From Methylopila capsulata (GTDB taxonomy: Bacteria; Pseudomonadota; Alphaproteobacteria; Rhizobiales; Methylopilaceae): a stretch of 64,000 nucleotides of DNA. Each line of letters starts with the position of its first letter. Within the stretch, counting starts at the first letter, position 1. The notes beneath the pieces were generated by a model, which was given only the letters and a program-made list of their open reading frames with translations, was not told where the DNA came from and did not search any database. A program made the translations under genes and the position numbers. Of this stretch, positions 46,003-64,000 are shown one piece after another. Location of the stretch: the NCBI RefSeq assembly GCF_016907975.1, contig NZ_JAFBCY010000005.1, forward strand, positions 1-64,000, written 5' to 3'.

Positions 46003-46033
46003 GCGGAGGTCTCGTTGGCTTGGATAGCGCGGG

Positions 46034-47203: not shown

Positions 47204-47401
47204 CGGCGGACAGCCTCCTGGACGTCGTGGGCCGCGAGCTACGGCGCGGGACGTCCGTCCAGGCGTCACGGCCCCATGCGCCGCGCGGCGGGCGCCCGGC
47301 TCGGGGTCGATCTGTGGAATGGCGGCGGGCGGAAAGGCAAGAGGCGACGCCCGACGGCGCCGCCTCCCACACGGGCTTAGAGAGTCGGAGGGCGCCCCTC
47401 C

Positions 47402-48652
47402 TCAGACCGCCCGGGCCTGGTGCAGACGCTCGATCTGCTGCTCGGTGTAGCCGAGATCCTTGAGCACCGCGTCGGTGTGCTCGCCGAGCAGCGGCGAGGC
47501 CTTGATGTCGACCTTCATGTCCGAGAACTTGATCGGGCTGCCGACCGTCAGGTACGTGCCGAGCTGCGGGTGCTGCACCTCGACCACCGTGCCGCTGGCG
47601 CGCAGGCTCGGGTCGACCGAGATTTCCTTCATCGACAGCACCGGCGAGCACGGGATGTCGAACTTGCGCAGGATGTCGACGGCCTCGAACTTGGTCTTGT
47701 CGGCGAGCCACGCCTCGATCACGCCGAAGATGTCCATGATCTTGTCCTGACGGGCGCGGGCGGTGTTGTAGGCCGCGTCGTCGATCCACTCCTCCTTGCC
47801 GATCGCCTTGCAGATCGGCGCCCAGGCGTGGCCCTGGATGGTGAAGTAGATGTAGGCGTTGGGATCGGTCTCCCAGCCCTTGCACTTGAGCACCCAGCCT
47901 GGCTGGCCGCCGCCGCCCGCGTTGCCGCCGCGCGGCACGACGTCCGTGAACTCGCCGTGCGGGTACTGCGGGTACTCCTCGAGGAAGCCGAGGGCGTCGA
48001 GGCGCTGCTGGTCGCGCAGCTTGACGCGGCAGAGGTTGAGCACCGCGTCCTGCATGGAGACGGCGACCTTCTGGCCCTTGCCCGTCTTGTTCTTCTGATG
48101 CAGCGCGGTGAGGATGCCGATCGCGAGATGCATGCCGGTGTTGCTGTCGCCGAGCGCTGCGGCCGACACGGTGGGGGGGCCATCCCAGAAGCCGGTGGTC
48201 GAGGCCGCGCCGCCGGCGCACTGCGCCACGTTCTCGTAGACCTTCAGGTCCTCATAGTGGTGACCGTCGGAGAAGCCCTTCACCGAGGCGAGGATCATGC
48301 CGGGGTTGAGCTCCTGGATGCGCGCCCAGGAGAAGCCCATGCGGTCGAGCGCGCCGGGGCCGAAGTTCTCGACCATGACGTCGGACTCGGCGATCAGCTT
48401 CTCGAGCACCTCCTTGCCTTCCGCCGTCTTGGTGTCGAGCGTGAGGGAGCGCTTGTTCGAGTTCAGCATCGTGAAGTACAGCGCGTCCGCGCCTTCGACG
48501 TGGCGCAGCTGGGAGCGGGTCACGTCGCCGGCGCCGGGGCGCTCGACCTTGATGACGTCCGCGCCGAACCAGGCGAGCAGCTGCGTGCAGGCCGGCCCGG
48601 CCTGAACGTGCGTGAAGTCGATGATCTTGATTCCCTCGAGCGGCTGGGTCAT
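47402..48652 (-). CDS. frc: Formyl-CoA:oxalate CoA-transferase
   Basis: A 416-residue family III CoA-transferase. The catalytic Asp is in [20 protein letters not shown] near residue 165. [20 protein letters not shown] at the start and the segment [20 protein letters not shown] are close to E. coli and Oxalobacter Frc. It swaps CoA from formyl-CoA onto oxalate. Its usual partner oxalyl-CoA decarboxylase (oxc) is not in the window. The start at 48652 follows the standard N-terminus. Confidence 0.93.
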
Positions 48653-48743
48653 CGCAGTGTCACTCCCTCTTGGCGCCACACGGCCCTCTTGGCCGATCTG
48701 ACGCGTTGGCTTTTGGACGCGCAGGCGTTGGACGCCGGCGCGG

Positions 48744-49187
48744 TCAGCTGACCGGCGCTGAACGTGCGGCCGCCTCGAGCTCCGCCAAGCGGCGGCGCAT
48801 CAGGCGTTCGTCGTTCCAGCGCGTGGTTTCGTCGCGAACGATCGCGGAGATCCCGGCGACCGAGCCGTCGGGCGCGCTCAGCAGGCCGACCGTGAAGGCG
48901 ATCGACAGCTGGCGCCCGTCCTTGTGCAAAGCCGGCACGCGAAGCGTGTCCGCGCCGTAGCGCGTCTCGCCCGTCCGCATGCTCTTCTCGTATCCCGCCC
49001 AGTGCCGCGCGCGGTGGCGCTCCGGCGTGATCAGGTCGAGCGACTGTCCGATCGCCTCGTCGGCCGTGAACCCGAAAATCCGCTCGGCCGCCCCGTTCCA
49101 GACCGTGATCAGGCCAGCCGCGTCAGAGACGACGACAGCGTCACCGGCGGTTTCGACGATCTGGGCGAAGTCGATCTCTGCGGACAT
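48744..49187 (-). CDS. Single-domain PAS protein
   Basis: A 147-residue protein made of one PAS domain: [20 protein letters not shown], then [20 protein letters not shown] and [20 protein letters not shown]. The short Arg-rich C-terminal helix has no kinase or GGDEF domain. It could be a stand-alone sensor module passing on a signal by protein contact; ligand and partner are unknown. Starts at 49187. Confidence 0.88.
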
Positions 49188-49873
49188 GTCTGGGCCTGCG
49201 GCGAAGCCGCGTCTCGTCGATTTCCTCGGACAAGCGCCGACAGGAATGGCGAACGCGGCCACGACCCGGACTCCGGGCGTGCAGCGTCAGGCGTTCGTGT
49301 TCGGCGCAACGACGTCGTGCGTCAGATGGTGCGGATGCGGCGCATCACGGGTTCAGTTCCTCCACTTTGTCGAGGCGGCTTCGCCGCTCTCGAGCGCTGT
49401 CCTTGAGGACTTTTGTGCGCTTTGTGGTATTTGGTATGCCAATAACGAGGAGGGTGTCAAGAGCCTCCGCCCTGCCGGCTGCAGGCGCCGCCCTCCCGAG
49501 GGCGTCCGAGGCGCGACCGGCCGTTCGCCGCGACATCCAGGGCGGGCCTTTCCGGCGAGATCAGGCCGGCGTCGCCGCTCCTTCGCAAGATCGCTGCAAA
49601 TGGGCGCACCCCTCTGACCCCACGGCGAAAAATATCCGCATATGGAAATAGAATAATAGTTTTTTGCAGCCTGCTACGGAAGTCATAATACATTTTATTC
49701 GCTTGCTTCTGCCGCCAATATCAATTGCATAGCGCGCATAATTGGAACAATTACACATAGTCACTCATCAACTAATCTTGACTCAATCGATCGATACAAC
49801 AATTGTCCCGCTCGACCTATGCGCTCGACCATATGCCGCCGGCTTGGCGCCGGCCTTCGTCAGCGAGAGAGAC
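49188..49873. promoter_or_regulatory. Gap with AT-rich regulatory region before the ECF sigma gene
   Basis: The first 440 bases carry no gene. At 49640-49810 the composition becomes strikingly rich in A and T against high-GC surroundings. It contains a 13-base dyad AATTGGAACAATT (49740-49752), and CAATTG occurs twice more (49722 and 49799 areas). This is the likely promoter of the sigma-factor gene at 49874; a low-GC patch can also mark acquired DNA. No regulator site could be named. Confidence 0.5.
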
Positions 49874-50413
49874 ATGCCAGCCCAGATCGTCGAACCACGC
49901 GCGCCGGGCCTTCTCGAGGCCTTGCTCGCCGAACGGACTCTGCTCGTCGGAATGGCCCAGAAAATCCTGAAATGCCGCCTGAAGGCGGAAGACGTCGTGC
50001 AGGACGTCGCCGTGAAGCTGTGCCAGGACCCGCCGAAGCGCGCCATCCAGCGGCCGGGGAGCTATCTCCGGCGGATGGTGCGCAACCACGCCATCGACAG
50101 CCTGCGCCGCAGCGTGGGCGAGAGCGCGCAGATGGCGGCGACCGCGGACATGGACGCGCTCGCCTCTCCCTGCGCCTGCCCGCAGGACAGGATCGCGACC
50201 TGCCAGGAGCTGTGCCTTGTCGCCCGCGCCCTGCAGGCGCTGCCGTCCCGCACCCGGCAGGCCTTCGTCGCGCACCGACTGGGCGGCGAGCCGCAGAACG
50301 CCATCGCCGCGCGGCTTCAGGTCTCCCCGACGCTCGTGAACTTCATGATGCGCGACGCCACGGCGTCCTGCCGGAAAGCCCTGGAGCCAGACGAGAGCCG
50401 CTCGGCGGCGTGA
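49874..50413 (+). CDS. ECF RNA polymerase sigma factor, FecI-like
   Basis: A 179-residue extracytoplasmic-function sigma factor. Region 2 includes RLKAEDVVQDVAVKLCQDP, with RPGSYLRRMVRNHAIDSLRR as the -10 contact; region 4 is LQALPSRTRQAFVAHRLGGE and NAIAARLQVSPTLVNFMM. This is closest to the FecI/PvdS iron-starvation group. No FecR antisigma gene lies next to it, and the receptor downstream lacks a signalling domain, so control by iron-dependent transcription is more likely. Start MPAQIVEPRAPG has a GAGAGAG site. Its last 71 bases overlap the PPTase gene. Confidence 0.88.
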   Translation: MPAQIVEPRAPGLLEALLAERTLLVGMAQKILKCRLKAEDVVQDVAVKLCQDPPKRAIQRPGSYLRRMVRNHAIDSLRRSVGESAQMAATADMDALASPCACPQDRIATCQELCLVARALQALPSRTRQAFVAHRLGGEPQNAIAARLQVSPTLVNFMMRDATASCRKALEPDESRSAA

Positions 50414-51110
50414 CCCGGCGGCCGAGCGTCGCCCACGCGACCTGAAGCGCGACCGAGGCGGTCGGAACAGCGAGGGTCGCGATGTGCGCTCCGGTGGGGC
50501 GCAGGGCGTGGAAGCTCCACGGCCCGGCGCAGGCGCCCCGCGCCAGACGCAGCGGCGAGGCGTCGGCGTCGAACGCGATCGCGCGGGGGTCGACCGTCCC
50601 GAGGCCGACGCCTTGCGCCTTCAGGAAGGCTTCCTTCGCCGTCCAGAGCCGGACGAACGTCGCCGCACGCTCCGCCGGGGGCGCGGCGCGCACCGCGTCG
50701 CGTTCGGACGGGGCAAAGGCGACCTCCGCGAGGCCCTCGAAATCCGCATGCGGCTCCAGGCGCTCCACGTCGACCCCCACCTCGCAACCTTGGGACACCG
50801 CGAGCGCAAGCAGCCCGCCCGTATGCGACAGGCTGAACCGCAGGCCCACGCGCTCGCACGGACCGGAGATGCGCGGCTTGCCGCCGGGGTCCGGAGCGAA
50901 GCGCCAGCGCTCCGGCGCGACGTCGCAGTAGGACGAAAGCGTCGTGCGCACGAGCGCCCGCGCCAGCACGTGAAGGCGACGGCTTCCGGGCGCCCGGAGG
51001 GCCTCGGCGCGGCGGCGCTCGCCCGCGTCCATCAGCGCCGCGCACTGGGCGACGACCTCGTCCGGGGCCTCGGACGAGGCGAGCCAGAGATCGACGTCGA
51101 CGGCGCTCAG
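50343..51110 (-). CDS. Sfp-type 4'-phosphopantetheinyl transferase (non-ATG start)
   Basis: A PPTase of about 255 residues that activates the NRPS carrier domain with CoA. Motifs are LRFSLSHTGGLLALAVSQG, GVDVERLEPHADF and RLWTAKEAFLKAQGVGLGTV, all typical of the Sfp/EntD group. No ATG, GTG or TTG is present where homologues begin; a CTG codon at 51108-51110 overlaps the DUF418 stop as CTGA and is my best start. The first ATG lies 26 residues in and would cut conserved sequence. It is the last gene of the leftward siderophore operon. Confidence 0.85.
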   Translation of the reverse strand: MSAVDVDLWLASSEAPDEVVAQCAALMDAGERRRAEALRAPGSRRLHVLARALVRTTLSSYCDVAPERWRFAPDPGGKPRISGPCERVGLRFSLSHTGGLLALAVSQGCEVGVDVERLEPHADFEGLAEVAFAPSERDAVRAAPPAERAATFVRLWTAKEAFLKAQGVGLGTVDPRAIAFDADASPLRLARGACAGPWSFHALRPTGAHIATLAVPTASVALQVAWATLGRRVTPPSGSRLAPGLSGRTPWRRAS

Positions 51111-52279
51111 GACGGCCGCGCCACGCTTGGACGGACGCGGGTCGGACCGGCGTTCATCGCCGCCGCCATGACGCGCTCGGCCGGCCCCGCCCCGAACCGC
51201 CGCTCCCACAACCTCGCCGCCAGCACGAAGCCGAGGAAGATCACGGCCGAGATCCACAGCGTGTCCCACAGCCGCGGCAGGCCGTAGAGCCCGAAGCCGT
51301 AGCCGAAGAAGACCAGCGAGGCGACGACCGAGAACCCGAGATAGATCGTCATCGACATCTTGCCCGCGGGCGCGAGCGCCGCCACCGCAGGCTCCGCCGC
51401 CGGACGGCGCAGGACGTGGAGCCCGAGCGCCAGCAGGACGAGGCTGAGCGGCAGCGCGAACAGCGGGCGGAGCACGAGAGTGAGCAGAAAGAATTTGCTG
51501 CTTCCGGCGCCGCTCGGCACGGAGGCCAGCACGCCGTAGGCGATGTTTCCGAGCACGGCGGGAACCAGCGCGTAGAGCGCGAGCGAGGCCACCAGCTTCG
51601 GCAGCCGTTCGGCGCCCCCGCGCTCGGCGAAGCGACCGGCCGCGAAGCCGAACAGCATGGCGGCGAACGAGAGCGGATAGTTCGACCAGAGGCAGTAGCT
51701 CTGGAACGACGCCCAGTTCTGAAGCCGGATCGCCATGATGTCGAGGAACCCGCCCGAGGCGAGCACAGCGGTGTTGTCGGCGAAGCCGCCGCCGGCCGGC
51801 GGCGCCAGCAGGAACCGCAGGCCGAAGGCCCCGATGCCGAGCACGGCGAGCGTCCAGAAGCCGATCGCGGCGCCCACGAGGAAGCGGCAGGAGCGGTTGC
51901 GGAACAGGATCAGCGCCGCCCCTAGGACCGCATAGGGCAGCAGGATGTCGCTCTCGAACAGCAGCGCGAGGTCGGCGACGCCGAAGGCGCCGAGCGCCAG
52001 CAGCCGCCGTCCGTAGCGTCCGACGCCGTAGCGCGACAGCTGCCGCCACGCGCCGTAGCCGAACAGCGCGGAGAAGATCAGGATGAACTTGCTTTCGAAC
52101 ACGCCCTGGATGGTCGCCGCCGCCAGAAGGTCGGCGACCGATGGGCCGGTCTTCTCCCAGGCGGTCCCGGCGAAGCCGCCGGACAGCGCGAAGAACGGCA
52201 GGTTGACGACGAGGATGCCGAACAGGGCGCAGGCGCGCAGGGCGTCGATCGATTGATCCCGGCCGGTGGGGGCGTGCAT
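51107..52279 (-). CDS. DUF418 family membrane protein
   Basis: A 390-residue protein with about eight to ten membrane helices. SIDALRACALFGILVVNLPF near the start and KFILIFSALFGYGAWRQLSR are typical of the DUF418/YeiB-like family, related to acyltransferase-3-like membrane proteins; the C-terminal DUF418 part includes APAGKMSMTIYLGFSVVAS. The function of DUF418 is unknown. It lies between the PLP enzyme and the PPTase in the siderophore operon, so it may act on or export the product. Start MHAPTGRDQSIDALR at 52279 with GAGAGG upstream. Confidence 0.85.
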   Translation of the reverse strand: MHAPTGRDQSIDALRACALFGILVVNLPFFALSGGFAGTAWEKTGPSVADLLAAATIQGVFESKFILIFSALFGYGAWRQLSRYGVGRYGRRLLALGAFGVADLALLFESDILLPYAVLGAALILFRNRSCRFLVGAAIGFWTLAVLGIGAFGLRFLLAPPAGGGFADNTAVLASGGFLDIMAIRLQNWASFQSYCLWSNYPLSFAAMLFGFAAGRFAERGGAERLPKLVASLALYALVPAVLGNIAYGVLASVPSGAGSSKFFLLTLVLRPLFALPLSLVLLALGLHVLRRPAAEPAVAALAPAGKMSMTIYLGFSVVASLVFFGYGFGLYGLPRLWDTLWISAVIFLGFVLAARLWERRFGAGPAERVMAAAMNAGPTRVRPSVARPS

Positions 52280-52338
52280 GGGGGCCTCTCTGTCTCTCGG
52301 CGGATGAGCGAAGGAACGGGCGGGGCGGGCGCCTTCCG

Positions 52339-53526
52339 TCACCGCCTTGCGCGGGCGAGCGCCTGCTCGACGTCGGTCCAGATGACGTCGGCGTCCTCCA
52401 GGCCGACGCCGAAGCGCACGGCGCGCGGGCTGACGCCGAAGCGCTGCAGGGAGTTCGCCTCGCCCGGCATCTGCAGGGGCGCGAGCGCCGGCATCACCAG
52501 CGATTCCGGCCCGCCCCAGCTGACCCCGATCCGCACGTGGCCGAGCGCGTCGGCGAAGCGCGCGACGTCGATCGCGTCGGTGACTTCGAAGGCGAACAGG
52601 CCGCCGAAGCCCGACAGGGTCGCCTTGCCGGGGTGGTCGCTGAAGGCCGGGTGCCGCACGCGCTCGACCTCGGGGTGGGCGGCGAGCCGCTCCGCGAGCG
52701 CGAGCCCGCTCGCCATGTGGCGCTCCATCCTGAGCGGTAGCGTGCGCATGCCGCGCAGCAGCAGCCAGGCCTCCAGCGGCGAGAGCTTGGCGCCGAGGTA
52801 GGGGTAGGAGCCCGTGTTTATGCGCGCGAGGTGCGCGGCCGAGCCGACGACCAGACCGCCCACCGTGTCGCTGTGCCCGCCAAGATATTTGGAGGCCGCA
52901 TGGATCACGAGGTCGACGCCGTGGGCGATCGGCTTCTGGTAGAGCGGCGTCGCCCAGGAGTTGTCGATGACGGTCAGTACGCCGTGGCGGCGGGCCTCGG
53001 CCGCGACCGCCGGCAGGTCCTGCAGGTCGAAGACGAGCGAGGTCGGGCTCTCGAGGTAGAGCAGCTTGGCGCCCGGCAGGGCGGCGACCACCGCGTCCGT
53101 GTCGGAGCCGTCGACGTAATCGACCGCGACGCCGAACTTCCTGAGGAGCTTCTCGCAGATCCTAAAGGCGTCGCTGTAGAGGTGGCGCACCGCGACGATG
53201 CGGTCCCCCTGCTCCAGGAAGGCGAGCAGGGTGGCCGCGATCGCGCCGGTGCCGCTGGAGAAGGCGCGGGCGGCCTCGGCGCCCTCGAGCGCCGCCACCA
53301 GGCTTTCGAGCTCCATCACGGTCGGGTTGTCGCCGCGCGAGTAGATGAACTGCTTGGAGCGCCCCGCGAACACCGCCTCCAGATCGGCGTAGCTGTCGAA
53401 GGTGAACAGCGAGGTCTGGAAGATCGCGGGCGAGGCGGCGTTGAACGGGCTGTTCGCCGGCGGCGCCGCGATCCGGGTGGCGGCGTCGAGCAGGAGGTGG
53501 TCGGGGTCGAGGATCGGCTTGTTCAT
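52339..53526 (-). CDS. Cystathionine gamma-synthase-like PLP enzyme in siderophore operon
   Basis: A 395-residue fold-type I PLP enzyme of the Cys/Met-metabolism family. The cofactor Lys is in IHAASKYLGGHSDTVGGLVV; YSRGDNPTVMELESLVAALE and TLLAFLEQGDRIVAVRHLYS are the front-part signatures; SFVFDLQDLP-like strand is replaced by TSLVFDLQDLPAVAAEARRH. The family does gamma-replacement and elimination on O-acyl/phospho-homoserine or cystathionine. It is 11 bases downstream of the MATE gene and 60 bases upstream of DUF418. I infer a role in making a building block of the siderophore, since a plain methionine gene would not be expected here. Confidence 0.88.
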   Translation of the reverse strand: MNKPILDPDHLLLDAATRIAAPPANSPFNAASPAIFQTSLFTFDSYADLEAVFAGRSKQFIYSRGDNPTVMELESLVAALEGAEAARAFSSGTGAIAATLLAFLEQGDRIVAVRHLYSDAFRICEKLLRKFGVAVDYVDGSDTDAVVAALPGAKLLYLESPTSLVFDLQDLPAVAAEARRHGVLTVIDNSWATPLYQKPIAHGVDLVIHAASKYLGGHSDTVGGLVVGSAAHLARINTGSYPYLGAKLSPLEAWLLLRGMRTLPLRMERHMASGLALAERLAAHPEVERVRHPAFSDHPGKATLSGFGGLFAFEVTDAIDVARFADALGHVRIGVSWGGPESLVMPALAPLQMPGEANSLQRFGVSPRAVRFGVGLEDADVIWTDVEQALARARR

Positions 53527-53537
53527 GGGGGTCGCCT

Positions 53538-54920
53538 TCACGAGGTCTGGGGCTTGGGCGTCAGGCGGGAAGGATCGGGCCGGCGAAGCTCGCCGAGCAG
53601 CGTCGCGCCGAGGCCCGCCGCGAGCAGCGCCGTCAGACCGGCCGCGGCGGCGAGGCTCCAGGCGACGCCGGCGAAGCCGAACCACAGGGGCAGCACGGCG
53701 AGCAGCGGCAGCAGCAGGTAGCCGTTGGGCGCGAGGCTGAGCGCCGCCGCCTGCCGCGGCTTACCCGCCGACTGGAGCAGGACGAGCAGCACGTAGCGGA
53801 GGCCGAGGAACGGGAACACGACGTGGGACGCCACCAGCGCCTCGGCGGCGAGGTCGATCGTGGCGGGATCGGCGGTGAAGAGGCCCGCGATCGGCCGCGC
53901 GAATAGGATGACGGCGAAGGCGTAGGCCGCGCAGAAGGCGGACGAGGCCGCCCCCATGAATCCGGCGGCGTCCGCCACGCGGCCCCGGTCGCCCGCGCCC
54001 CAGGCGTAGCCGAGCACGGGCTGGCCGCCGAGCGCGAAGCCGATCACCGGCAGGGTGCCGAGGGTCATCACCCGGAGCGCGATCCCGATCGCGGCGATTC
54101 CGGCCTCGCCTGCATGGGCGCCTGCGCTGCGGTAGAGGATGGCGAAGGCGGCGCCGGTCAGCGCGCTGGAGGCCGCGATCGGCAGGCCGATGGCGACGAC
54201 GGGTCCGAGCACTCTTCGGCGCAGACGCGCGAGCCGCGGCGCCACCCGCAGCACGCCCCAGCGGCGGCGGAAGTAGAGCGCGTAGACGCAGAGCACCACG
54301 ACCTGCGAGATCAAGGTGGCGAGCGCCGCGCCCGCGACGCCGAGACCAAACCCGAAGATCAGCACGGGATCGAGCGCGACGTTGAGGCCGAAGCCGCCGA
54401 TCAGCGTCCACATGCTGAAGCGGGTGTTGCCTTCGGAGATCGCGACGAAGTCGCAGATGATCTGCAGCAGGATCAAAGTCGACCCGAGAGCGGCGACGAT
54501 CAGGTAGCTCTCGGCCATCGGCAGCGTCGCCTCCGGCGCGCCGAACAGCTCCAGCAGCGGCCTTCGCGCGAGGATGGTCACGGCCGTTAGCAGCAGGCCG
54601 AGGGGGATCGCGACCGCGATCACGGTGGAGGCGACGACGCCGGCCTCCGTCTTGCGCCGGGCCCCGAGCAGGCGCCCGATGGTGGCCGCCGCGCCGACGC
54701 CGAGGCCCTCGCCGACGGCGGCGATCAGGATGACGATCGGCAGCGCCAAGGTGACCGCCGCGATCGCCTCGACGCCGATCGCCCCTACAAACAGAGCGTT
54801 CGCGGTGTGGTGGGCGGCGTTGGCGGACAGGCCGATGACGGCGGGCAGGGCCAGCCGGACGACGAGGCGCTTGAGGTCCGGCGCGCCGAGGTCGGCGGGG
54901 GCGAACAGGCCCGCGCTCAT
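53538..54920 (-). CDS. MATE family efflux protein
   Basis: A 460-residue exporter with twelve predicted helices. LPAVIGLSANAAHHTANALF and ALPIVILIAAVGEGLGVGAA are the first-half MATE segments, with IGFALGGQPVLGYAWGAGDR in the second half. The start at 54920 overlaps the GNAT stop as ATGA. Its place between a siderophore acyltransferase and a PLP enzyme suggests it exports the finished siderophore. Confidence 0.92.
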   Translation of the reverse strand: MSAGLFAPADLGAPDLKRLVVRLALPAVIGLSANAAHHTANALFVGAIGVEAIAAVTLALPIVILIAAVGEGLGVGAAATIGRLLGARRKTEAGVVASTVIAVAIPLGLLLTAVTILARRPLLELFGAPEATLPMAESYLIVAALGSTLILLQIICDFVAISEGNTRFSMWTLIGGFGLNVALDPVLIFGFGLGVAGAALATLISQVVVLCVYALYFRRRWGVLRVAPRLARLRRRVLGPVVAIGLPIAASSALTGAAFAILYRSAGAHAGEAGIAAIGIALRVMTLGTLPVIGFALGGQPVLGYAWGAGDRGRVADAAGFMGAASSAFCAAYAFAVILFARPIAGLFTADPATIDLAAEALVASHVVFPFLGLRYVLLVLLQSAGKPRQAAALSLAPNGYLLLPLLAVLPLWFGFAGVAWSLAAAAGLTALLAAGLGATLLGELRRPDPSRLTPKPQTS

Positions 54921-55891
54921 GCTGTTTTTTCCGGAGCCCACAGCCGGTCGCCGAAGAAACGCTCGCGCAGGAGCATCACCAGCAGCGCCCGTTTGTGCGG
55001 AAAATCGAAGTGCTTGACCTTGGCGAAGCCGGCCTTGTCGAGGTTGCGGATCTGCTGGGCGTGGGTGGCCCTGGGCTCGCCGACGATGCGCCGGGTCCGG
55101 GGGTCGTCCAGGAACATGTAGTGCATCAGCGAGGGCAGCCAGGCGGTGATGAAGTCCTTGCCGCGAAAGGCGTCTTCGCCGATCAGCACATGCCAGCCGC
55201 GGTCGTGGTCGTCGGCGTCGTAGAACGGTCCGAGCCGATTCTCCTTGGCCCAGTAGAGCTCGAAATAGCCGAAGGGCGCGCCGTCGAACTCGCCGATCAG
55301 GGTGAGCAGGTGCGGGTCGGCCGCGCGCTCCTCCAGCGAGGCGCGATGGGCCTCCAGCGTCCCCGCCTCCTCCCAGACCGCGTCGACCCGCGGGTCGTTC
55401 ATCCAGCGGTGGAACAGGGCAAGGTCGCGGTTAACCTCGAGGGCGCGGAAACGCAACGTCTGGTTAACCCAAGGGATACTCCGGGCGTACACGACGCCGC
55501 GCGGTTTCGAAGGTCGGAGCGGATGGCGGCGCCCGGCCGTGACGACCGGCAGCTCCGGGTAGACGGGCCGGTCGCGCTCCGCGAGCCAGGTCGAGGGCCG
55601 CTGCCAGAGCAGCTCCGGCCGGACCACCAGCCGCCCGGCGTCGGGAACGACGATCGCCTCCGCGATCAGCCGCGCCCGCCCGGCCTCGTCGGCGCAGACG
55701 ACCTCGATCGTCGGGGCCTCCCGGTCCTCCGCGGTCAGAGCTTCCGCGACCGCGGCGACGGCCTTCGCAAGCTGGCCCGGCTCGGCCGGCTCCGGCGCGA
55801 GGACGACGCCGGCCTCCGACCGCTCGATCCGGACGTCCGGGGCCAGGGAGTGCGCTTGGGCGAGGCTCGGGGTTTTGGCGACGACGTTCAT
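54917..55891 (-). CDS. GNAT-type siderophore N-acyltransferase (IucB/MbtK-like)
   Basis: A 324-residue protein with a weakly conserved N-terminal half and a C-terminal GNAT domain of the Acetyltransf_8 group. RHPLRPSKPRGVVYARSIPW, LFHRWMNDPRVDAVWEEAGT, GWHVLIGEDAFRGKDFITAW and ATHAQQIRNLDKAGFAKVKH match the acyltransferases that put an acetyl or longer acyl group on an N-hydroxylamine (IucB, VbsA, MbtK). With the N-hydroxylase at 60457 it would build a hydroxamate. It heads the leftward operon. Confidence 0.9.
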   Translation of the reverse strand: MNVVAKTPSLAQAHSLAPDVRIERSEAGVVLAPEPAEPGQLAKAVAAVAEALTAEDREAPTIEVVCADEAGRARLIAEAIVVPDAGRLVVRPELLWQRPSTWLAERDRPVYPELPVVTAGRRHPLRPSKPRGVVYARSIPWVNQTLRFRALEVNRDLALFHRWMNDPRVDAVWEEAGTLEAHRASLEERAADPHLLTLIGEFDGAPFGYFELYWAKENRLGPFYDADDHDRGWHVLIGEDAFRGKDFITAWLPSLMHYMFLDDPRTRRIVGEPRATHAQQIRNLDKAGFAKVKHFDFPHKRALLVMLLRERFFGDRLWAPEKTA

Positions 55892-56149
55892 GGCGGTCCT
55901 CGGAGTGCTCCCTGATGCGGGAGGCGATTTCGGGGCCTGTTCAGAGCCCGGACGACCGGTTCAGGAGCGCAGCGCGTGCTTCGAGACGCCCCCATCGGCC
56001 GCTCCAAACGGGCCTTCACGACCCAAGACGAGGTCCGCACCCCGGAATTTAGGTTCGGATGAAAAATTCGGCGCCGGCCTAAATCCCGGGCGCTCGGGTC
56101 CGTCTTGGGGGTGTTCGCTCCGGACATCTCTTCCGAGGACCCAAGCCCC
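55892..56149. promoter_or_regulatory. Divergent promoter region of the siderophore operons
   Basis: This 258-base gap separates the leftward GNAT operon and rightward MbtH-NRPS operon. Its core at 56043-56088 is an imperfect inverted repeat: GGAATTTAGG on the left and CCTAAATCCC on the right, with 25 bases between. Read on each strand the arms are GGAATTTAGG and GGGATTTAGG. These could be operator half-sites, or two outward-crossing ECF-type -35 elements. No Fur or RirA box could be matched. Confidence 0.5.
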
Positions 56150-56380
56150 ATGACAGACGACGAGCTTTGGCAGGTCGTGCAGGACCGCGAGGGCCGATAC
56201 TCGGTCTGGCCGCAGGACCGCGCCGCCCCGCTCGGCTGGACCACGACCGGCTTCGCCGGCCGCCGCGCGGCCTGCGTCGCGCACATCGACGCGACCTGGA
56301 CCGACCCGCTCCCCGCCCGCTGGCGGGCCGTTCTCGACGCCCGGACAACGGCTGAACCGAAGGGGTCCGCCCATGCGTGA
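56150..56380 (+). CDS. MbtH-like protein
   Basis: A 76-residue MbtH-family protein, which binds and supports NRPS adenylation domains. DDELWQVVQDREGRYSVWPQ, then PLGWTTTGFAGRRAACVAHI and DATWTDPLPARWR contain the conserved tryptophans. The usual Asn before the acidic pair (N-x-EGQYS) is changed to DREGRYS. It overlaps the NRPS start by eight bases, so the two are translationally coupled. The ATG at 56150 is chosen over the GTG at 56105-56110. Confidence 0.92.
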   Translation: MTDDELWQVVQDREGRYSVWPQDRAAPLGWTTTGFAGRRAACVAHIDATWTDPLPARWRAVLDARTTAEPKGSAHA

Positions 56381-59300
56381 ACCCGTTCTCGCCGCGCCCG
56401 CCGACGTGGTGGACCTCGCCCGGCCGGCGGAGACCGCCGCCGGCTTCCCGCTGTCGGTCGCGCAGAAGCGCATCTGGTCGCTCGGCCTCGTCGGCGCCCA
56501 CGGCGTCTTCCCCGCCCAGACGCTGGCGCTGGTCTTCGCGCAGGCGCCGGACGACGCCGCGCTCCGCGCGCTCGCAGCCATCCACCCCTCGCTCCGCACA
56601 CGCTTCCGGCGGTTCGCCGGCGGGCGCATCGAGCAGGTCGCGGCGCCCGCGGAGGAGTTGGTCGTCGAACGGCTCGACCTCGCCCTGCATCCGGCCGAAT
56701 CCGAAGAGGCCGGCCTCGCCCGCCTGGTCGACGCCTTCGCGGCCCGCCCGTTCGATCTCGACCGCGAGCCTGCGGCCCGCATCGCCCGCATCGCCCTCTC
56801 CGGCGGCCGTTCGGCCATCGCCCTCACGCTGCACCCGATCGTCGCCGACCCCGCCTCGCTGCGCGTTCTCGCCCGCGACCTGGCGGCGGCGGCGAACGGG
56901 GACGCGCCCGGCGAGGTTCGCGACGCCGCGCTGACGCTGGCCCCGGCCGAGCAGGCGTGGCTGCGCGCGCCGGCTTTCGCGGACACCCTGGAGTACTGGC
57001 GCGCGGCCTTCGCGGGCGAGCACGCCGCGGCGACGCTGCCGCTGAAGAACGGCCTCGGCGCCGCCGCGGCCGGCGTCCGCGGGCGCAGCGCGTTCCGGAT
57101 CGCGCCCGAGACCGTGCGGGGCCTTGAAGCGCTTGGCGCCCGCGAGGGCCTGCCGCTCCCGACGCTGGTGTTCGCCGGCTTTCACACCCTGCTCGCCCGC
57201 TACTCCGGCCAGTGGGCGCTCCGCACCGGCATCGTGATCGAGAACCGGGCGGACACCGCCCGCGCCGGAACGGTCGGCCGCTTTGAGGACGTGGCGCCGC
57301 TGCACCTCGACCTGGCCTCAAGCGCGAGCTTCGTCGCTCTTGCCCGCGCGGCGCAGGCTAGGCTCGACGACGCCCTCGCCCACCACGCGCCGATCGAGCG
57401 GCTGGCGCAGGAGCTGTGGCGCCACGAGGGCGACGCCAGCGAAAGCCTGGTGAAGACGCTGTTCGAGTTCCGGGAGGCGCTTGGTCTGGACGAGGCGGCC
57501 CCCCTCACCCGCCCCCTCGCCGCCCGGGCGGACACCGACTTCATCCTCACGGTTCAACCCGCTGCGGACGGCGGGCTGGACGCGGTGATGGACTACGCCG
57601 AGGGGCTCTACGACGCCCGGCTCGTCGCCCGCGCCGCGAACGGCCTGACCCGGATTCTTCGGGCCGCCGCCGAGAACGGCGCGGTGCGCCTGCGCGACAT
57701 CGCGCTGGTCGAGGCCGACGAACTGGACTGGCTCTCCGCGCCCTACCCCGACGACGTGATCGACGACGACCGTCCCGTGCACGAGCTGATCGCGGACCAC
57801 GCGGCGCGGACCCCCGACAAGGTCGCGATCCTCTACGCCGAGGAGAGCTGGACCCACGGCGAGCTCGACCGCTTCGCGAACCGCCTCGCCCATCGGCTCG
57901 TCCGCGAGGGCGTCGGTCCCGAGGACTGCGTCGCGATCGCGGTGAAACGCAGCCCGCAGGCGATCGGCGCGATGCTCGCGACGCTGAAGGCCGGCGGCGC
58001 CTACATCCCCGTGGAGCCCGACCACCCGGCGGTCCGCAACGACCACATCTTCCGCGACGCGGGCGTGAAGGTCATCGTCACCAACAGCTGGCTGACGGCG
58101 AAGATCCCGACCGGGGTCGACGCCGTGGTGCTGGAGCTCGACCGCATCGACCTCGAGGCCGAGCCGGCGGCGGCCCCCGAGACGCCTCCGGTCCACGACG
58201 ACCAGCTCGCCTACGTGATGTACACCTCCGGCTCCACCGGCCTGCCCAAGGGCGTCGGCGTGGAGCACGGGCCGCTGACGCATCACCTGCAGTCGACGGC
58301 GCGGGTCTACGGCATGACCGAGATCTCGCGGGAGCTGCCGTTCCTGCCGTTCTCCTCCGACGGCGGGCATGAGCGCTGGATGAACCCGCTGATGGTCGGC
58401 GGCTCCATCATCCTGCCCGACCAGCCGCTGTGGACGCCGGAGGAAACGCTCGCCGCGATGCGCCGGCATGGGGCGAACAACGCCTCGATCCCCACCACCT
58501 ACCTCCAGCAGCTGGCGGAGGAGGCCGACGCCAATGCAAGCGCGCCGCCCATGCGGCTCTACTCCTTCGGCGGCGAAGGTCTGCCGCAGACCACCTTCGA
58601 GCTGCTGTCGCGCTCGCTGAACTCCGAGTGGCTGATCAACGGCTACGGCCCGACCGAGACCATCATGACGCCGATGGTCTGGAAGGTGCGCGCCGGCGCC
58701 CGCTTCGAAGGGACCTACGCCCCGCTCGGCTGGTGCGTTGGCCGCCGCCGCGCCTATGTGCTGGACGCCGACCTGAACCCCTGCCCGATCGGCGTGACCG
58801 GCGAGCTCTATCTCGGCGGCGAAGGCGTGGCGCGCGGCTATCTCGGCCGGCCCGGCGTCACCGCCGACCGCTTCATGCCGGACCCGTTCAGCGCCGAGGG
58901 CGGCCGGCTCTACCGCTCCGGCGACATGACGCGCTGGCGCGAGGACGGCTCGGTGGAGTTCGTCGGCCGCGTCGACCACCAGGTGAAGCTGCGCGGCTTC
59001 CGCATCGAGCTCGGCGAGATCGAGGCGGCGCTGCTGGCGCAGGACGGCGTGGGCGAGAGCCTCGTCATCCTGCGCGAGGACGACGGCCGCAAGGCGCTGG
59101 TCGCCTATGTGGTCCCGAAGGCCGGGGCGACCCTCGACGGCGACGCGCTTCGCCGCGCGCTGGTGCGGGAGCTGCCGGACTACATGGTCCCGGCCGCCAT
59201 CGTGCCGCTGGAGCGCATGCCGACCAACCCCAACAGCAAGCTCGACCGCATGGCGCTGCCGGCGCCGAAGCTCAAGCTCTCCGAGAGCGTTCCGCCCGCG

Positions 59301-60392
59301 ACGCCGCTGGAGGAGGAGCTGCTGGCGCTCTGGAAGCAAGTGCTGAACGTCGAGGCGCTCGGCGTCACCGACAACTTCTTCGAGATCGGCGGCCATTCGC
59401 TCGCGGCGGTCAAGATCGTGAGCCGGCTTCGCGCGCTGAAGCCGAAGGCCAAGGTGACCATCGCCGACCTGTTCAACGAGGCCACGGTGCGCAAGCTCGC
59501 GGCCTCGATCGAGCGCGGCGGCGAGGCGACCGGCGGCCAGGTGATCCGCCTGCGCGAGAGCGGCTCCCGGCCGATGCTGTACTGCTTCCCCGGCCTGCTG
59601 GTCTCGACCCGCGAGTACGTCAAGCTCGTCGACTTCCTCGGGCCGGAGCAGCCGGCCACGGGCTTCATCTGCTACTCGCTGTCGGAGGAAAAGAAGCTCG
59701 ACGCATCGGTGGAGGAGATCACCGGGCGTTACGTCGACCACATCCGCAAGGAGAGCGCTGGCCGCCCCTGCTTCTTCCTCGGCTGGTCCTGGGGCGGGCT
59801 GCTCGCCTACGAGGCGGCGCGGATGCTGGGCTCCGACATCGACCTCCGGCTCGTCGGCATGATCGACGTCTGCGACCTCGGGACCGAGTTCGCGATCGGC
59901 GCGACGCCGCAGTTCGCTCCGGGCGAGCGCGACGAGCTGCAGCGGCTCGTCACCGAATGGCTGGGCCGCACGAGGATGCGCGCCGACTGGGACCGCCTGC
60001 TCGGCTCCATGGACGCGCGCACCTACGACCAGTTCCTGCGCTTCGTGGGCGACGAGGAGGAGAGCCTGCCGACCGACGGGCCGGACATCTCCAGCCGCGA
60101 GCACACCTTCTGGATCCTGATCGACAACGCGCTGATCTTCCGCCGCCACGTGCTGCAGCCCTTCGACGCGCCGATCCACTCCTGGGCGGCCGAGGACAGC
60201 CTGCACCGCGGGCTCAACCTGATGGACTGGCGCCGACTCTCGCGGCGGGCGAACCCGGCCGAGATCATCGCCGGCACCAACCACCTCCACGTCATCGGAT
60301 CGAGCGCCTTCCACAGCCGCTTCGCGGCGCGGATCGACGAGGCGATGGCGGGGCTGGACGGGACCGAGAGGCGAAAACGCATGAGCGGGTGA
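56373..60392 (+). CDS. One-module NRPS: degenerate C, A, T and TE domains
   Basis: A 1339-residue non-ribosomal peptide synthetase. Condensation-like domain at about 20-430 (SVAQKRIWSLGL), but the HHxxxDG site reads HPIVADP at 154-160, so the catalytic His is Pro. Adenylation domain about 465-970: YTSGSTGLPKGVGVEH at 617, NGYGPTETI at 756, YRSGDMTRW at 847, NPNSKLDRM at 953. Carrier domain: FFEIGGHSLAAVKI with phosphopantetheine Ser1009. Thioesterase from about 1070: GWSWGGLLAYEAARM with Ser1139 and a late NHLHVI His. A manual alignment of the A-domain pocket starts D-G-E, with an acidic residue suiting a basic or hydroxamate-bearing side chain. Likely loads the acylated N-hydroxy amino acid; the TE may oligomerise and release it. 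Confidence 0.93.
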   Translation: MREPVLAAPADVVDLARPAETAAGFPLSVAQKRIWSLGLVGAHGVFPAQTLALVFAQAPDDAALRALAAIHPSLRTRFRRFAGGRIEQVAAPAEELVVERLDLALHPAESEEAGLARLVDAFAARPFDLDREPAARIARIALSGGRSAIALTLHPIVADPASLRVLARDLAAAANGDAPGEVRDAALTLAPAEQAWLRAPAFADTLEYWRAAFAGEHAAATLPLKNGLGAAAAGVRGRSAFRIAPETVRGLEALGAREGLPLPTLVFAGFHTLLARYSGQWALRTGIVIENRADTARAGTVGRFEDVAPLHLDLASSASFVALARAAQARLDDALAHHAPIERLAQELWRHEGDASESLVKTLFEFREALGLDEAAPLTRPLAARADTDFILTVQPAADGGLDAVMDYAEGLYDARLVARAANGLTRILRAAAENGAVRLRDIALVEADELDWLSAPYPDDVIDDDRPVHELIADHAARTPDKVAILYAEESWTHGELDRFANRLAHRLVREGVGPEDCVAIAVKRSPQAIGAMLATLKAGGAYIPVEPDHPAVRNDHIFRDAGVKVIVTNSWLTAKIPTGVDAVVLELDRIDLEAEPAAAPETPPVHDDQLAYVMYTSGSTGLPKGVGVEHGPLTHHLQSTARVYGMTEISRELPFLPFSSDGGHERWMNPLMVGGSIILPDQPLWTPEETLAAMRRHGANNASIPTTYLQQLAEEADANASAPPMRLYSFGGEGLPQTTFELLSRSLNSEWLINGYGPTETIMTPMVWKVRAGARFEGTYAPLGWCVGRRRAYVLDADLNPCPIGVTGELYLGGEGVARGYLGRPGVTADRFMPDPFSAEGGRLYRSGDMTRWREDGSVEFVGRVDHQVKLRGFRIELGEIEAALLAQDGVGESLVILREDDGRKALVAYVVPKAGATLDGDALRRALVRELPDYMVPAAIVPLERMPTNPNSKLDRMALPAPKLKLSESVPPATPLEEELLALWKQVLNVEALGVTDNFFEIGGHSLAAVKIVSRLRALKPKAKVTIADLFNEATVRKLAASIERGGEATGGQVIRLRESGSRPMLYCFPGLLVSTREYVKLVDFLGPEQPATGFICYSLSEEKKLDASVEEITGRYVDHIRKESAGRPCFFLGWSWGGLLAYEAARMLGSDIDLRLVGMIDVCDLGTEFAIGATPQFAPGERDELQRLVTEWLGRTRMRADWDRLLGSMDARTYDQFLRFVGDEEESLPTDGPDISSREHTFWILIDNALIFRRHVLQPFDAPIHSWAAEDSLHRGLNLMDWRRLSRRANPAEIIAGTNHLHVIGSSAFHSRFAARIDEAMAGLDGTERRKRMSG

Positions 60393-60456
60393 GGCGTCCC
60401 CCGCCCGCCAAACGCCTTTCCCAACAAAGCCCTTCCTGTCCAAGGACCTGACGACG

Positions 60457-61794
60457 ATGAGCGACACCGCCCGTACGACCGACCTCGACAGCATCGAACC
60501 CCTGGACCTCGCCGGCGTCGGCGTCGGCCCGTTCAACCTCAGCCTCGCCGCCCAGCTCGACAGCGTGCCGGAGCTCTCCGCACGCTTCTTCGAGCGCCGC
60601 CCGCGCTTCGACTGGCACCCCGGCATGATGCTGCCGGACGTCGAGCTGCAGTCGTCCTACCTCAAGGACCTCGTCACCTCGACCAACCCGACGAGCCCGT
60701 GGTCCTTCACCTCCTACCTCGTCCAGACCAAGCGCTTCTTCGCCTTCCTCAACGCGCACTACGACGCCGCGCCGCGGAAGGAGTTCGCGCGCTATTTCGC
60801 CTGGGTGGCGGAGCAGCTGCCGACGCTGACCTTCGGCGCCGACGTGAGCGAGGTCGACCACGACGGGCGCGACTTCGTGCTGACGGTGGACGGGACGAAA
60901 CGGCGCGCGCGCAACCTCGCGATCGGCGTCGGCATGCAGCCGCAGCTGCCGGACTGGGCGCAGGGCTTCGACCGCGGCCGCTGCTTCCACGCGAGCGAGG
61001 CGGTGGACCGGCTGCCGGGCCTGCCCGCGGGCCGCGTCGCGGTCATCGGCGGCGGGCAGAGCGGCGCGGAGATCGTGCAGCATCTGCTCGCCCAGGAGAC
61101 GCCGCCGCAGGCGCTGAGCTGGCTCAGCCGCCGCCACAACTTCGAGCCGCTGAACGACACGCCGTTCTCGAACCAGGTGTTTTCGCCGGAGTACGTCGAC
61201 GCCTACCGCAAGCTCGGCGACGAGCGGAAGACCGCGGCCTTCGCGACCGCGGTGCTGACCAGCGACGGCGTCTCGCCCTCGACCATCGACGCGATCTACC
61301 GGCGGCTCTACGCCATGCGCTACCTCGAGGACAGCCCGGTCGACGCCGCCATGCTGCCGAGCCGCGACGTGATCCAGGCCGAGGAGCGCAACGGCGAGTA
61401 CCGGCTGATCGTGCGCAACGGATTCGACGGCGGCATCGAGGTGCTGTTCGCCGACGCGCTGGTGCTCGCCACCGGCTACCGCTTCCGCCTGCCGGACGCG
61501 CTGGCGCCGCTGAAGCGCCGGATCGCGACCGACCGGCAGGACCGGCTGATCCTCGCCGACGACTACTCCGTCGCCTGGGACGGGCCGCGCCACGCCCGCA
61601 TCTTCGCGCTCAACGCCGGCCGCCACAGCCACGGCATCGCCGAGAGCCAGCTCAGCCTGATGGCCTGGCGCAGCTCGGCGATCGTGAACGCCCTCGTCGG
61701 CTACGACCGCTTCGACCTGGAGCTGCCCGAGCCGATGGTGAACTGGGCCTCGATCGCCCCGGCCGTCGCCGGCGCCGCCCGGGCCGACGCGTGA
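60457..61794 (+). CDS. IucD-like L-lysine/L-ornithine N-monooxygenase
   Basis: A 445-residue flavin N-hydroxylase for siderophore synthesis. FAD site GVGVGPFNLSLAAQL near residue 22; MLPDVELQSSYLKDLVTSTN then PTSPWSFTSYLVQTKRFFAF near residue 65 is nearer IucD and AlcA than PvdA; NADPH site VAVIGGGQSGAEIVQHLLAQ; ATGYRFRLPDA near 340. It hydroxylates the terminal amine of lysine, ornithine or a diamine; which one cannot be decided. It is 64 bases after the NRPS gene. Start at 60457. Confidence 0.92.
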   Translation: MSDTARTTDLDSIEPLDLAGVGVGPFNLSLAAQLDSVPELSARFFERRPRFDWHPGMMLPDVELQSSYLKDLVTSTNPTSPWSFTSYLVQTKRFFAFLNAHYDAAPRKEFARYFAWVAEQLPTLTFGADVSEVDHDGRDFVLTVDGTKRRARNLAIGVGMQPQLPDWAQGFDRGRCFHASEAVDRLPGLPAGRVAVIGGGQSGAEIVQHLLAQETPPQALSWLSRRHNFEPLNDTPFSNQVFSPEYVDAYRKLGDERKTAAFATAVLTSDGVSPSTIDAIYRRLYAMRYLEDSPVDAAMLPSRDVIQAEERNGEYRLIVRNGFDGGIEVLFADALVLATGYRFRLPDALAPLKRRIATDRQDRLILADDYSVAWDGPRHARIFALNAGRHSHGIAESQLSLMAWRSSAIVNALVGYDRFDLELPEPMVNWASIAPAVAGAARADA

Positions 61795-61915
61795 GAGACG
61801 TCGCCCCCTCGCCCGTGTCGCGCCTTCGCGGCGCGCGGCTTCCCGCACGGAAGCTTGACGGCGGACGCCGGCCAAGCGAGGGGGCGCGCCCAACCTCGAA
61901 CCGCCGGACATCGCC

Positions 61916-62779
61916 TTGACCGACCTTCCCGTGACCCTGCCCGGCTGCGTCCGGTTCGACCTCGCGCCCGCTGCGGGCGGCGCGCCCTACCGCATCTTCC
62001 TGCGGACGCCGCCGGGCGAGGCGCCCGCCGCGGGCTGGCCCGTGATCTATCTCCTCGACGGCAACGCCGTGTTCGCGACCGCCGTCGACGCGCTCCGGTC
62101 ACAGACGCCCTGGCCGATGGGGACGGGGATCTCCGACGCCGTGGTCGTCGCAGTCGGCTATCCCACGGACGGGGCCTACGACAGCGTGCGCCGCTCCTGG
62201 GACTACGGCCCGCCGCCCGGCGCGACCTACCCCCGCCACACGCCGGACGGTCCCGAGGTGCGGACCGGCGGCGCGGCCGACTTCCTCGCCTTCCTCGCGG
62301 ACGAGCTGAAGCCCGAGATCGCCCGCCGGGTCGCGACCGACCCGGCCGGGACCGCGCTGTTCGGCCACTCCTTCGGCGGCCTCTGCGCGCTCTACGGGCT
62401 GTTCACCCGGCCCGAGGCCTTCTCGCACTGGATCGCGGTGAGCCCCACGATCTACTGGGAGGACTTCAACCTCCTCCCCCACGCCGACCGCTTCGGCGCC
62501 CGCGCCGACCGGCCCGCCGGCCTCAAGGTGCTGATCTCGGTCGGCGAGTACGAGGAGCGGCTGGCGCCCTTCCAGATCGGCGCCGCCGACGAGGACAAGC
62601 GCCGCGCGGCGCAGGCGCGTGCGCAGACTGAAAGCCACGCGCGCGCCATGCACGCGCGCCTGGGCGCGCTCGACGGCGTGACTAGCGCCTTCGCGCTGAT
62701 CCGCGGCGAGACCCACATGTCGGTGCTTCCGACAGCAGTCAACCAGGCCATCCGCTTCGCCTTCGGCGCATGGGACTGA
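61916..62779 (+). CDS. Siderophore esterase-like alpha/beta hydrolase (Fes/IroE type)
   Basis: A 287-residue alpha/beta hydrolase of the esterase D/IroE group. AAGWPVIYLLDGNAVFATAV, ALFGHSFGGLCALYGLFTRP (nucleophile Ser) and GETHMSVLPTAVNQAIRFAF (catalytic His) are visible. Relatives cut ester-linked siderophores such as enterobactin or fusarinine to release iron; if so, the product carries ester bonds. TTG at 61916 and GTG at 61931 are alternative starts, neither with a strong ribosome site. No signal peptide, so it acts in the cytoplasm. Confidence 0.85.
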   Translation: MTDLPVTLPGCVRFDLAPAAGGAPYRIFLRTPPGEAPAAGWPVIYLLDGNAVFATAVDALRSQTPWPMGTGISDAVVVAVGYPTDGAYDSVRRSWDYGPPPGATYPRHTPDGPEVRTGGAADFLAFLADELKPEIARRVATDPAGTALFGHSFGGLCALYGLFTRPEAFSHWIAVSPTIYWEDFNLLPHADRFGARADRPAGLKVLISVGEYEERLAPFQIGAADEDKRRAAQARAQTESHARAMHARLGALDGVTSAFALIRGETHMSVLPTAVNQAIRFAFGAWD

Positions 62780-62932
62780 TTTCGTTTGATTGTAAAAATT
62801 AAAAACGCCTCACGCGATAGTTCACGACCGCGTCATCTCGAGGGTCTGACTTCGACGGCGCACTGAAATAGAACGGCGCGACTGGACGTTCCGGTCGGGG
62901 ATCTGCGGGACATACTGAGACTGGGGATGGCG
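62780..62932. promoter_or_regulatory. Gap upstream of the TonB receptor gene
   Basis: A 153-base gap with an AT-rich first part (TGATTGTAAAAATTAAAAAC near 62787) followed by GC-rich sequence. It may carry a promoter of its own for the receptor, but no Fur, RirA or ECF site stands out. Confidence 0.35.
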
Positions 62933-64000
62933 ATGAAGGCTGATGTACTGAAGTTGACGCGCGCGGCGTCTCTGGCGGGCGCGGCGACGGCCGCGGTTCT
63001 CTGCGCCGGCGGGGCTCAAGCCCAGGAAGGCGGGACCACCGCGCTGGAGGAGATCCAGGTCACCGGCGAGGGCCGCAAGGACACCGCGCGCGGCCCGGTC
63101 GAGGGCTACGTCGCCACCCGCTCCAGCGCCGGCACTAAGACCGACACGCCCATTCTCGAGACCCCCCGCTCCGTGGAGGTGATCGGGCGGCAGGAGCTCG
63201 AGGACCGCGGCGTGACCACGCTGCCGGAGGCGGTGCGCTACTCGCCGGGCGTGACGACCAACGGCTCCGGCTTCGACCCCCGCTTCGACCAGATCTCGAT
63301 CCGCGGCTTTGCGGTCAACACTTATGGCGACTACAAGGACGGCCTGCGGCAGACGCAGGGCCAGTTCGCCACCTTCCGCAGCGAACTGTTCGGTCTGGAG
63401 CGCATCGACATCATCAAAGGGCCTGCCGCCGTGCTCTACGGTCAGACGACGCCCGGCGGCCTAATCGACCGCATCTCCAAGCGTCCGACCGAGGCGCCCC
63501 GCCTCGAGATCATGACGAATATGGCGAGCACCGGCCGCTACGAGAGCGGGGTCGACGTCAGCGGACCACTTAACGCGGCGGGCACGGTGCTCGGCCGAAT
63601 GGTGGCTCTGGGTCGGATCGGCGAACTCGACTACGACATCAAGGACGAACGGGCGATGCTGGCGCCGTCGCTGACCTTCGCGCCCAACGATCAGACGAAG
63701 TTCACGATCTACGGGCTCGTGCAGAAGGACGAGACCGACAGCAACGTCGCCGTGATGAACACGTCGAGCGGCGACCCCTTCAATGTCAGAGCGAGCGATC
63801 CAAGCTACGATCACCTGAAGCAAACCCAGTATCAGGCCGGCTACGAATTCTCGCATGAATTCAATGACACGTTCACGTTCCGGCAAAACGCTCGCTACAA
63901 CTACCTCGACATGGACGCTCGTTACCTGACAGCGAACGTCTCTGGCGGCGGATACGATCCAACTCGCCCCAACGTCTATCGACGTGGCTCATACGCGATC
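62933..64000 (+). CDS. TonB-dependent siderophore receptor (partial, N-terminal part)
   Basis: The first 356 residues of an outer-membrane receptor; the gene continues past the window. Signal peptide residues 1-32 (MKADVLKLTRAASLAGAATA, then AVLCAGGAQA). A TonB-box-like region is followed by the plug domain: TPRSVEVIGRQELEDRGVTT, ISIRGFAVNTYGDYKDGLRQ, then ERIDIIKGPAAVLYGQTTPG, GGLIDRISKRPTEAPR. No N-terminal signalling (STN) domain is present. This is the FhuA/FoxA-type layout for ferric hydroxamates. ATG at 62927 in frame would add two residues. The last 250 bases use more A- and T-ending codons than the NRPS. Confidence 0.9.
   Translation, partial: MKADVLKLTRAASLAGAATAAVLCAGGAQAQEGGTTALEEIQVTGEGRKDTARGPVEGYVATRSSAGTKTDTPILETPRSVEVIGRQELEDRGVTTLPEAVRYSPGVTTNGSGFDPRFDQISIRGFAVNTYGDYKDGLRQTQGQFATFRSELFGLERIDIIKGPAAVLYGQTTPGGLIDRISKRPTEAPRLEIMTNMASTGRYESGVDVSGPLNAAGTVLGRMVALGRIGELDYDIKDERAMLAPSLTFAPNDQTKFTIYGLVQKDETDSNVAVMNTSSGDPFNVRASDPSYDHLKQTQYQAGYEFSHEFNDTFTFRQNARYNYLDMDARYLTANVSGGGYDPTRPNVYRRGSYAI

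Follow-up and report, generated by a model that had tools for sequence, protein, structure and literature searches.

The window analysed here comprises 64,000 nucleotides, the first 64 kb of a 280-kb contig of Methylopila capsulata, and contains a siderophore locus that represents one divergent gene set with two directions of transcription (Table 1). With increasing coordinate, the minus strand carries the genes for a 4'-phosphopantetheinyl transferase (PPTase), a DUF418 protein, a PLP-dependent enzyme, a MATE exporter and an N-acyltransferase (vbsA), with the gene of an ECF sigma factor located at lower coordinates on the plus strand; beyond vbsA, the plus strand encodes an MbtH-like protein, a C-A-T-TE non-ribosomal peptide synthetase (NRPS), an N-hydroxylase, an esterase and a TonB-dependent receptor. 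All of the siderophore parts that an earlier note on this DNA had named are thus present as open frames with the expected family matches, and the interval it had assigned to them (49640-64000) is correct. The cluster, however, continues past the window: the receptor gene, cut by the window edge, is complete at contig position 65143, and behind it lie fhuD, fhuB and fhuC, reaching ~69168. Two start codons are uncertain, namely that of the sigma factor gene, for which an upstream TTG at 49742 is an alternative, and that of the PPTase gene, which overlaps the end of the DUF418 gene.

Table 1. Genes and sequence features of the M. capsulata siderophore locus within the window (aa, amino acids).
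Feature	Position	Strand	Basis
ECF sigma factor, RpoI-like	49874..50413	+	Sigma70_r2/r4_2; 33% to R. etli vbs-linked sigma, 36% to Phyllobacterium
4'-Phosphopantetheinyl transferase, VbsP-like	50343..51110	-	ACPS match; 31% to R. etli PPTase
DUF418 (YeiB-type) membrane-spanning protein, putative acyltransferase of the TmAT superfamily that may replace VbsC	51107..52279	-	PF04235
VbsL ortholog, PLP-dependent acyl-hydroxyornithine epimerase, Cys/Met-metabolism fold	52339..53526	-	63% to R. etli VbsL; PF01053 in both
MATE exporter, VbsD position	53538..54941	-	PF01554; 45% to R. etli
VbsA ortholog, N5-hydroxyornithine N-acyltransferase	54917..55891	-	PF13523 (Acetyltransf_8); 60% to R. etli
ECF-type promoter motif CTAAAT-N16-CGTC, predicted driver of vbsA operon	56027..56052	-	
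ECF-type promoter motif CTAAAT-N16-CGTC, predicted driver of vbsG-S-O	56079..56104	+	
MbtH-like protein, VbsG ortholog	56150..56380	+	53% over 64 aa to R. etli
VbsS ortholog, C-A-T-TE NRPS, 1339 aa	56373..60392	+	60% to R. etli VbsS over 97%; Pfam domains
VbsS condensation domain, HPIVADP in place of HHxxxDG	56445..57722	+	
VbsO ortholog, ornithine N5-hydroxylase	60457..61794	+	PF13434; 61% to R. etli
Predicted ferric-siderophore esterase, no vbs name	61916..62779	+	PF00756; 47% to Phyllobacterium vbs-linked hydrolase
TonB-dependent receptor, truncated by the window end (3' end at contig 65143)	62927..64000	+	45% to R. etli receptor

In the downstream flank, a palindromic repeat of ~125 bp, of which the genome holds about a dozen copies, lies between the receptor gene and fhuD (contig 65205-65340), and an Elm1-like gene (PF06258; contig 69184-70233) directly 3' of fhuC occurs a second time in the genome (C1:799392, 53%). 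In a congener (G024), a related copy of the repeat is found in the gap between vbsS and vbsO, and vbsS itself has a net insertion of 192 bp inside the gene.

A tblastn search of plasmids with the NRPS yielded full-length relatives at 60% identity in Rhizobium and Phyllobacterium, including p42f of R. etli CFN42, and it is to the proteins of this plasmid that the pairwise identities of VbsL (over 381 aa), VbsS, VbsO, VbsA, VbsG, VbsD and VbsP in Table 1 refer; FhuB and FhuD are 46% and 40% identical to those of R. etli CFN42, for which the receptor value likewise holds. For vbsA, D, G, S, P and C, the naming follows usage in the vbs literature together with gene position, and the orthology of the PPTase and the MATE exporter is largely positional since their identities are comparably low. 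With VbsL, a VbsS having its specific adenylation code, VbsO and VbsA, linked VbsG, MATE and PPTase genes, and an ECF sigma factor along with its predicted promoter, the locus is very probably a complete vicibactin-type (vbs) siderophore system, the core of which is already well known while its tailoring and iron-release set is a variant one. A novel class of siderophore is ruled out by the VbsS, VbsL, VbsO and VbsA orthologs at ~60% identity. The synthetase, described in the earlier note as an unusual one-module NRPS, turns out to be VbsS, and the cystathionine-gamma-synthase-like enzyme, by which the note had set the locus apart from vicibactin clusters, is VbsL. The DUF418 protein is a true extra. 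VbsL, an epimerase of acyl-hydroxyornithine, serves antiSMASH as the marker for vicibactin, and VbsO is the ornithine hydroxylase (PMC12971057); of all shared parts, the PLP enzyme is thus the most diagnostic. The locus does not fit the aerobactin-type pathway, which employs an IucA/IucC synthetase and no NRPS: the M. capsulata cluster has an NRPS, and none of its proteins that were scanned matched the IucA/C type.

The closeness to known vbs clusters extends to gene order. The p42f cluster shows the same divergent arrangement (sigma factor, PLP enzyme, MATE and GNAT genes on one side, MbtH, NRPS and monooxygenase genes on the other), but its PPTase gene follows the monooxygenase gene, whereas in M. 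capsulata it lies on the other side of the cluster. Both p42f and pRL12 of R. johnstonii 3841 share with M. capsulata (i) vbsA-D-L, vbsG-S-O and the genes for the PPTase, the ECF sigma factor, FhuBD and the receptor, (ii) the divergent layout, and (iii) the adenylation code and the HP motif of the condensation domain, with the promoter motif also found in CFN42. In contrast to these two clusters, that of M. capsulata is devoid of vbsC, an SDR gene and fhuF, and has the esterase and DUF418 genes added. Phyllobacterium zundukense and relatives have the vbs core, the esterase and fhuDBC and likewise no vbsC, but they lack DUF418 and place the sigma factor and receptor genes otherwise. The locus of Azorhizobium doebereinerae UFLA1-100 (L074) comprises the core, the esterase (62%), a DUF418 protein (41%) and the receptor (50%), again without vbsC, its DUF418 gene, however, adjoining the receptor gene on the other strand. 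Finally, among NRPS relatives from other genera, that of Bradyrhizobium manausense (L007) is the most similar (67% identity); its locus also encodes an esterase at 61%, but there vbsC adjoins vbsL and DUF418 is absent.

The adenylation code of M. capsulata VbsS is identical to that of R. etli VbsS. Of 76 VbsS sequences, 75 show this code, DGESYFGMT, in full, and in the last the pattern read only part of it. In all 76 condensation domains of the VbsS type, the HHxxxDG motif is replaced by HPxxxDx, with proline in the place of the second, catalytic histidine (the control, E. coli EntF, reads HHLLVDG). The thioesterase motif GWSWGG and the NHL/THL histidine are conserved among the VbsS compared, one row of which is truncated there. 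Because the condensation domain is without its catalytic histidine, the thioesterase is probably the ester-forming and ring-closing part of the enzyme. Since the route contains no amide made by the NRPS, a working condensation domain would not be needed: VbsA would make the hydroxamate amide, and three esters would be left to the thioesterase. The earlier note had proposed a hydroxamate siderophore, probably ester-linked, from a single iterating module with a thioesterase and accompanied by receptor, exporter, esterase and sigma factor, and this picture holds.

What is observed here is which genes, layout, code and motifs are present and which genes are absent; the chemistry that follows, the acyl group of VbsA included, is predicted from orthology. 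VbsO would hydroxylate ornithine at N5, VbsA would attach an (R)-3-hydroxybutyryl-type group, and the monomer would then be epimerised by VbsL and loaded by VbsS, the thioesterase of which would join three monomers by ester bonds and close the ring. The product would be exported by the MATE protein, its iron complex imported through the TonB-dependent receptor and FhuDBC, and the iron freed upon opening of the ring by the esterase inside the cell. The likely product is a vicibactin-type cyclic trihydroxamate, either in the desacetyl form or with acyl groups attached by the DUF418 protein. One may ask whether a monomer other than that of vicibactin, with lysine for ornithine or with another hydroxyacyl group, yields a different ring. 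VbsS, VbsA and VbsO are only ~60% identical to their counterparts, and the best NCBIfam match of the hydroxylase is to a different model (TIGR04439), below its cut-off. The shared adenylation code argues against a different monomer, as does the presence of PhaB, which scores above the curated cut-off in a profile search of the genome, so that (R)-3-hydroxybutyryl-CoA should be available; we hence regard a different ring as improbable.

In the 259-base gap between vbsA and vbsG, CTAAAT-N16-CGTC occurs twice, once per strand. In the whole genome the exact pattern occurs four times, including these two, and a control pattern does not occur at all. An equivalently positioned copy precedes vbsA in most of the Rhizobium, Phyllobacterium and Bradyrhizobium loci read and in Methylocapsa aurea. 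The motif appears to be the promoter read by the ECF sigma factor of the cluster, and the RpoI-like protein would, on this prediction, activate transcription in both directions. In Rhizobium, the vbs-linked sigma factor is RpoI.

The absence that matters, and which the earlier note did not mention, is that of vbsC. No match to VbsC was obtained in the M. capsulata genome at E<=0.001, and the same search matches Rhizobium, Agrobacterium vitis, Trinickia, Paracoccus siganidrum, Bradyrhizobium iriomotense and Methylocapsa aurea. With VbsC missing, the product would therefore be desacetyl or be acylated by the DUF418 enzyme, and acetylation by a non-homologous acetyltransferase encoded elsewhere could also occur. 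The esterase is found as well in vbs loci of Phyllobacterium, Bradyrhizobium, Azorhizobium and Rhodobacterales, and many Rhizobium clusters have the reductase gene fhuF where M. capsulata has the esterase. Among 76 loci, belonging to few lineages and read with limited flanks, 39 contain the esterase and 17 fhuF, with none containing both. A strict either-or relation of esterase and vbsC was rejected: 36 loci have the esterase only, 34 vbsC only, three both and three neither, the tree gives only 4-5 changes, the independent-pairs test has no power, and one further locus (L107) has both.

The DUF418 gene overlaps that of the PPTase and encodes the only DUF418 protein of the genome. Among vbs loci such a gene is found solely in M. 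capsulata, two congeners (G024 and G023) and A. doebereinerae, and none of these loci contains vbsC; on plasmids, only a Bosea copy was found, away from siderophore genes. A search of PDB sequences gave no match. An AlphaFold2 model computed from two sequences (pLDDT 68.5, pTM 0.73) exhibits the 10-TM fold of the TmAT superfamily, and VIA-align ranks human HGSNAT at the top (Z-score 21.4, 300 residues, r.m.s.d. 3.8), followed by the acyltransferase GWT1 at a Z-score of 14 and by all others below 7; Foldseek returns the same order with weak E-values. HGSNAT is a transmembrane acetyl-CoA:amine acetyltransferase which acetylates an amine across the membrane. The DUF418 protein shares with it the DxxR, FxxxxG and SxxxY motifs and the TMH1 Asn, at an overall sequence identity of only 12-13%. 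DUF418/YeiB proteins have been placed in the TmAT superfamily, the acyl-CoA site of which comprises DxxR, FxxxxG, an Arg of TMH3 and a Tyr of TMH9 (PMC12423673). In the M. capsulata protein, with helix numbers assigned by motif order, we find D13xxR16, F70xxxxG75, R93 and S310xxxY314 along with a DxxRx10N pattern, and D13/R16, F70/G75, R93 and Y314 are invariant, YeiB included. The Asn follows R16 by 11 residues, at a site occupied by His in AT3 proteins; in HGSNAT the Asn is further along the helix.

Because the model resembles HGSNAT and the acyl-CoA motifs are retained, the DUF418 protein may act in place of VbsC as a transmembrane, acyl-CoA-dependent N-acyltransferase of the alpha-amines of the siderophore. 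In favor of this assignment, which we consider possible though rather less than probable, are the fold, with the next family being one of acyltransferases too, the TmAT motifs, and the occurrence in two lineages exclusively in vbs loci without vbsC. Two lineages, however, are few, the model derives from two sequences at a modest pLDDT, and since E. coli YeiB shares most of the motifs, they indicate an acyltransferase and not its substrate. Whether the product is instead plain desacetyl-vicibactin with free alpha-amines, and the DUF418 protein serves some other purpose, for example modification of the envelope, appears evenly balanced. The lack of vbsC in the genome fits such a product, Phyllobacterium and most Rhodobacterales vbs loci are without both vbsC and DUF418, and a natural desacetyl form, vicibactin 7101, reportedly still works as a siderophore. 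Against an unrelated role stand the position of the gene within the operon, overlapping that of the PPTase, its being the sole copy in the genome, and its recurrence, at another position, in the Azorhizobium vbs locus. It is tempting to speculate, albeit tentatively, that an HGSNAT/YeiB-type DUF418 protein replaced soluble VbsC and acylates siderophore amines at the membrane during export.

VbsL was found in 3 of 13 sampled genomes (species) of the genus and VbsS in 8 of 397 genomes of an order-wide sample, and class-wide sampling revealed no further vbs loci. In one congener (G025; L102), the counterparts of contig 45812-49492 (93%) and 68273-69166 (92%) are nearly adjacent, with the intervening 18.8 kb (contig 49493-68272) replaced by ~70 bp and a lone fhuC, 94% identical, remaining. 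This near-empty site suggests that vbs was lost by a deletion which spared fhuC. Elsewhere, the Rhodobacterales loci (L043-L078) have a best VbsO match of only ~30% as compared with ~60% for VbsL, and may thus use a different N-hydroxylase. A vbs locus in a record titled as an actinobacterium, Nocardioides marinus (L066), groups tightly with Phaeobacter and Leisingera and probably reflects a mislabelled or contaminated assembly. The vbs-type locus of Trinickia diaoshuihuensis (L077; Burkholderiales), outside of the Alphaproteobacteria, groups on a long branch with Agrobacterium vitis/Allorhizobium, and horizontal transfer is possible.

Our findings place a full vicibactin-type system in a genus of Rhizobiales where only three of the 13 sampled species carry one, and the absence of the catalytic histidine throughout the VbsS family points to the thioesterase as the part that forms the esters and closes the ring. 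Iron release probably differs among the clusters, with the esterase acting in some lineages and the FhuF reductase in others. Finally, we found no reported bacterial substrate for the DUF418/YeiB-type family, and the alpha-amines of the siderophore would offer a testable one for these widespread and little characterised proteins.
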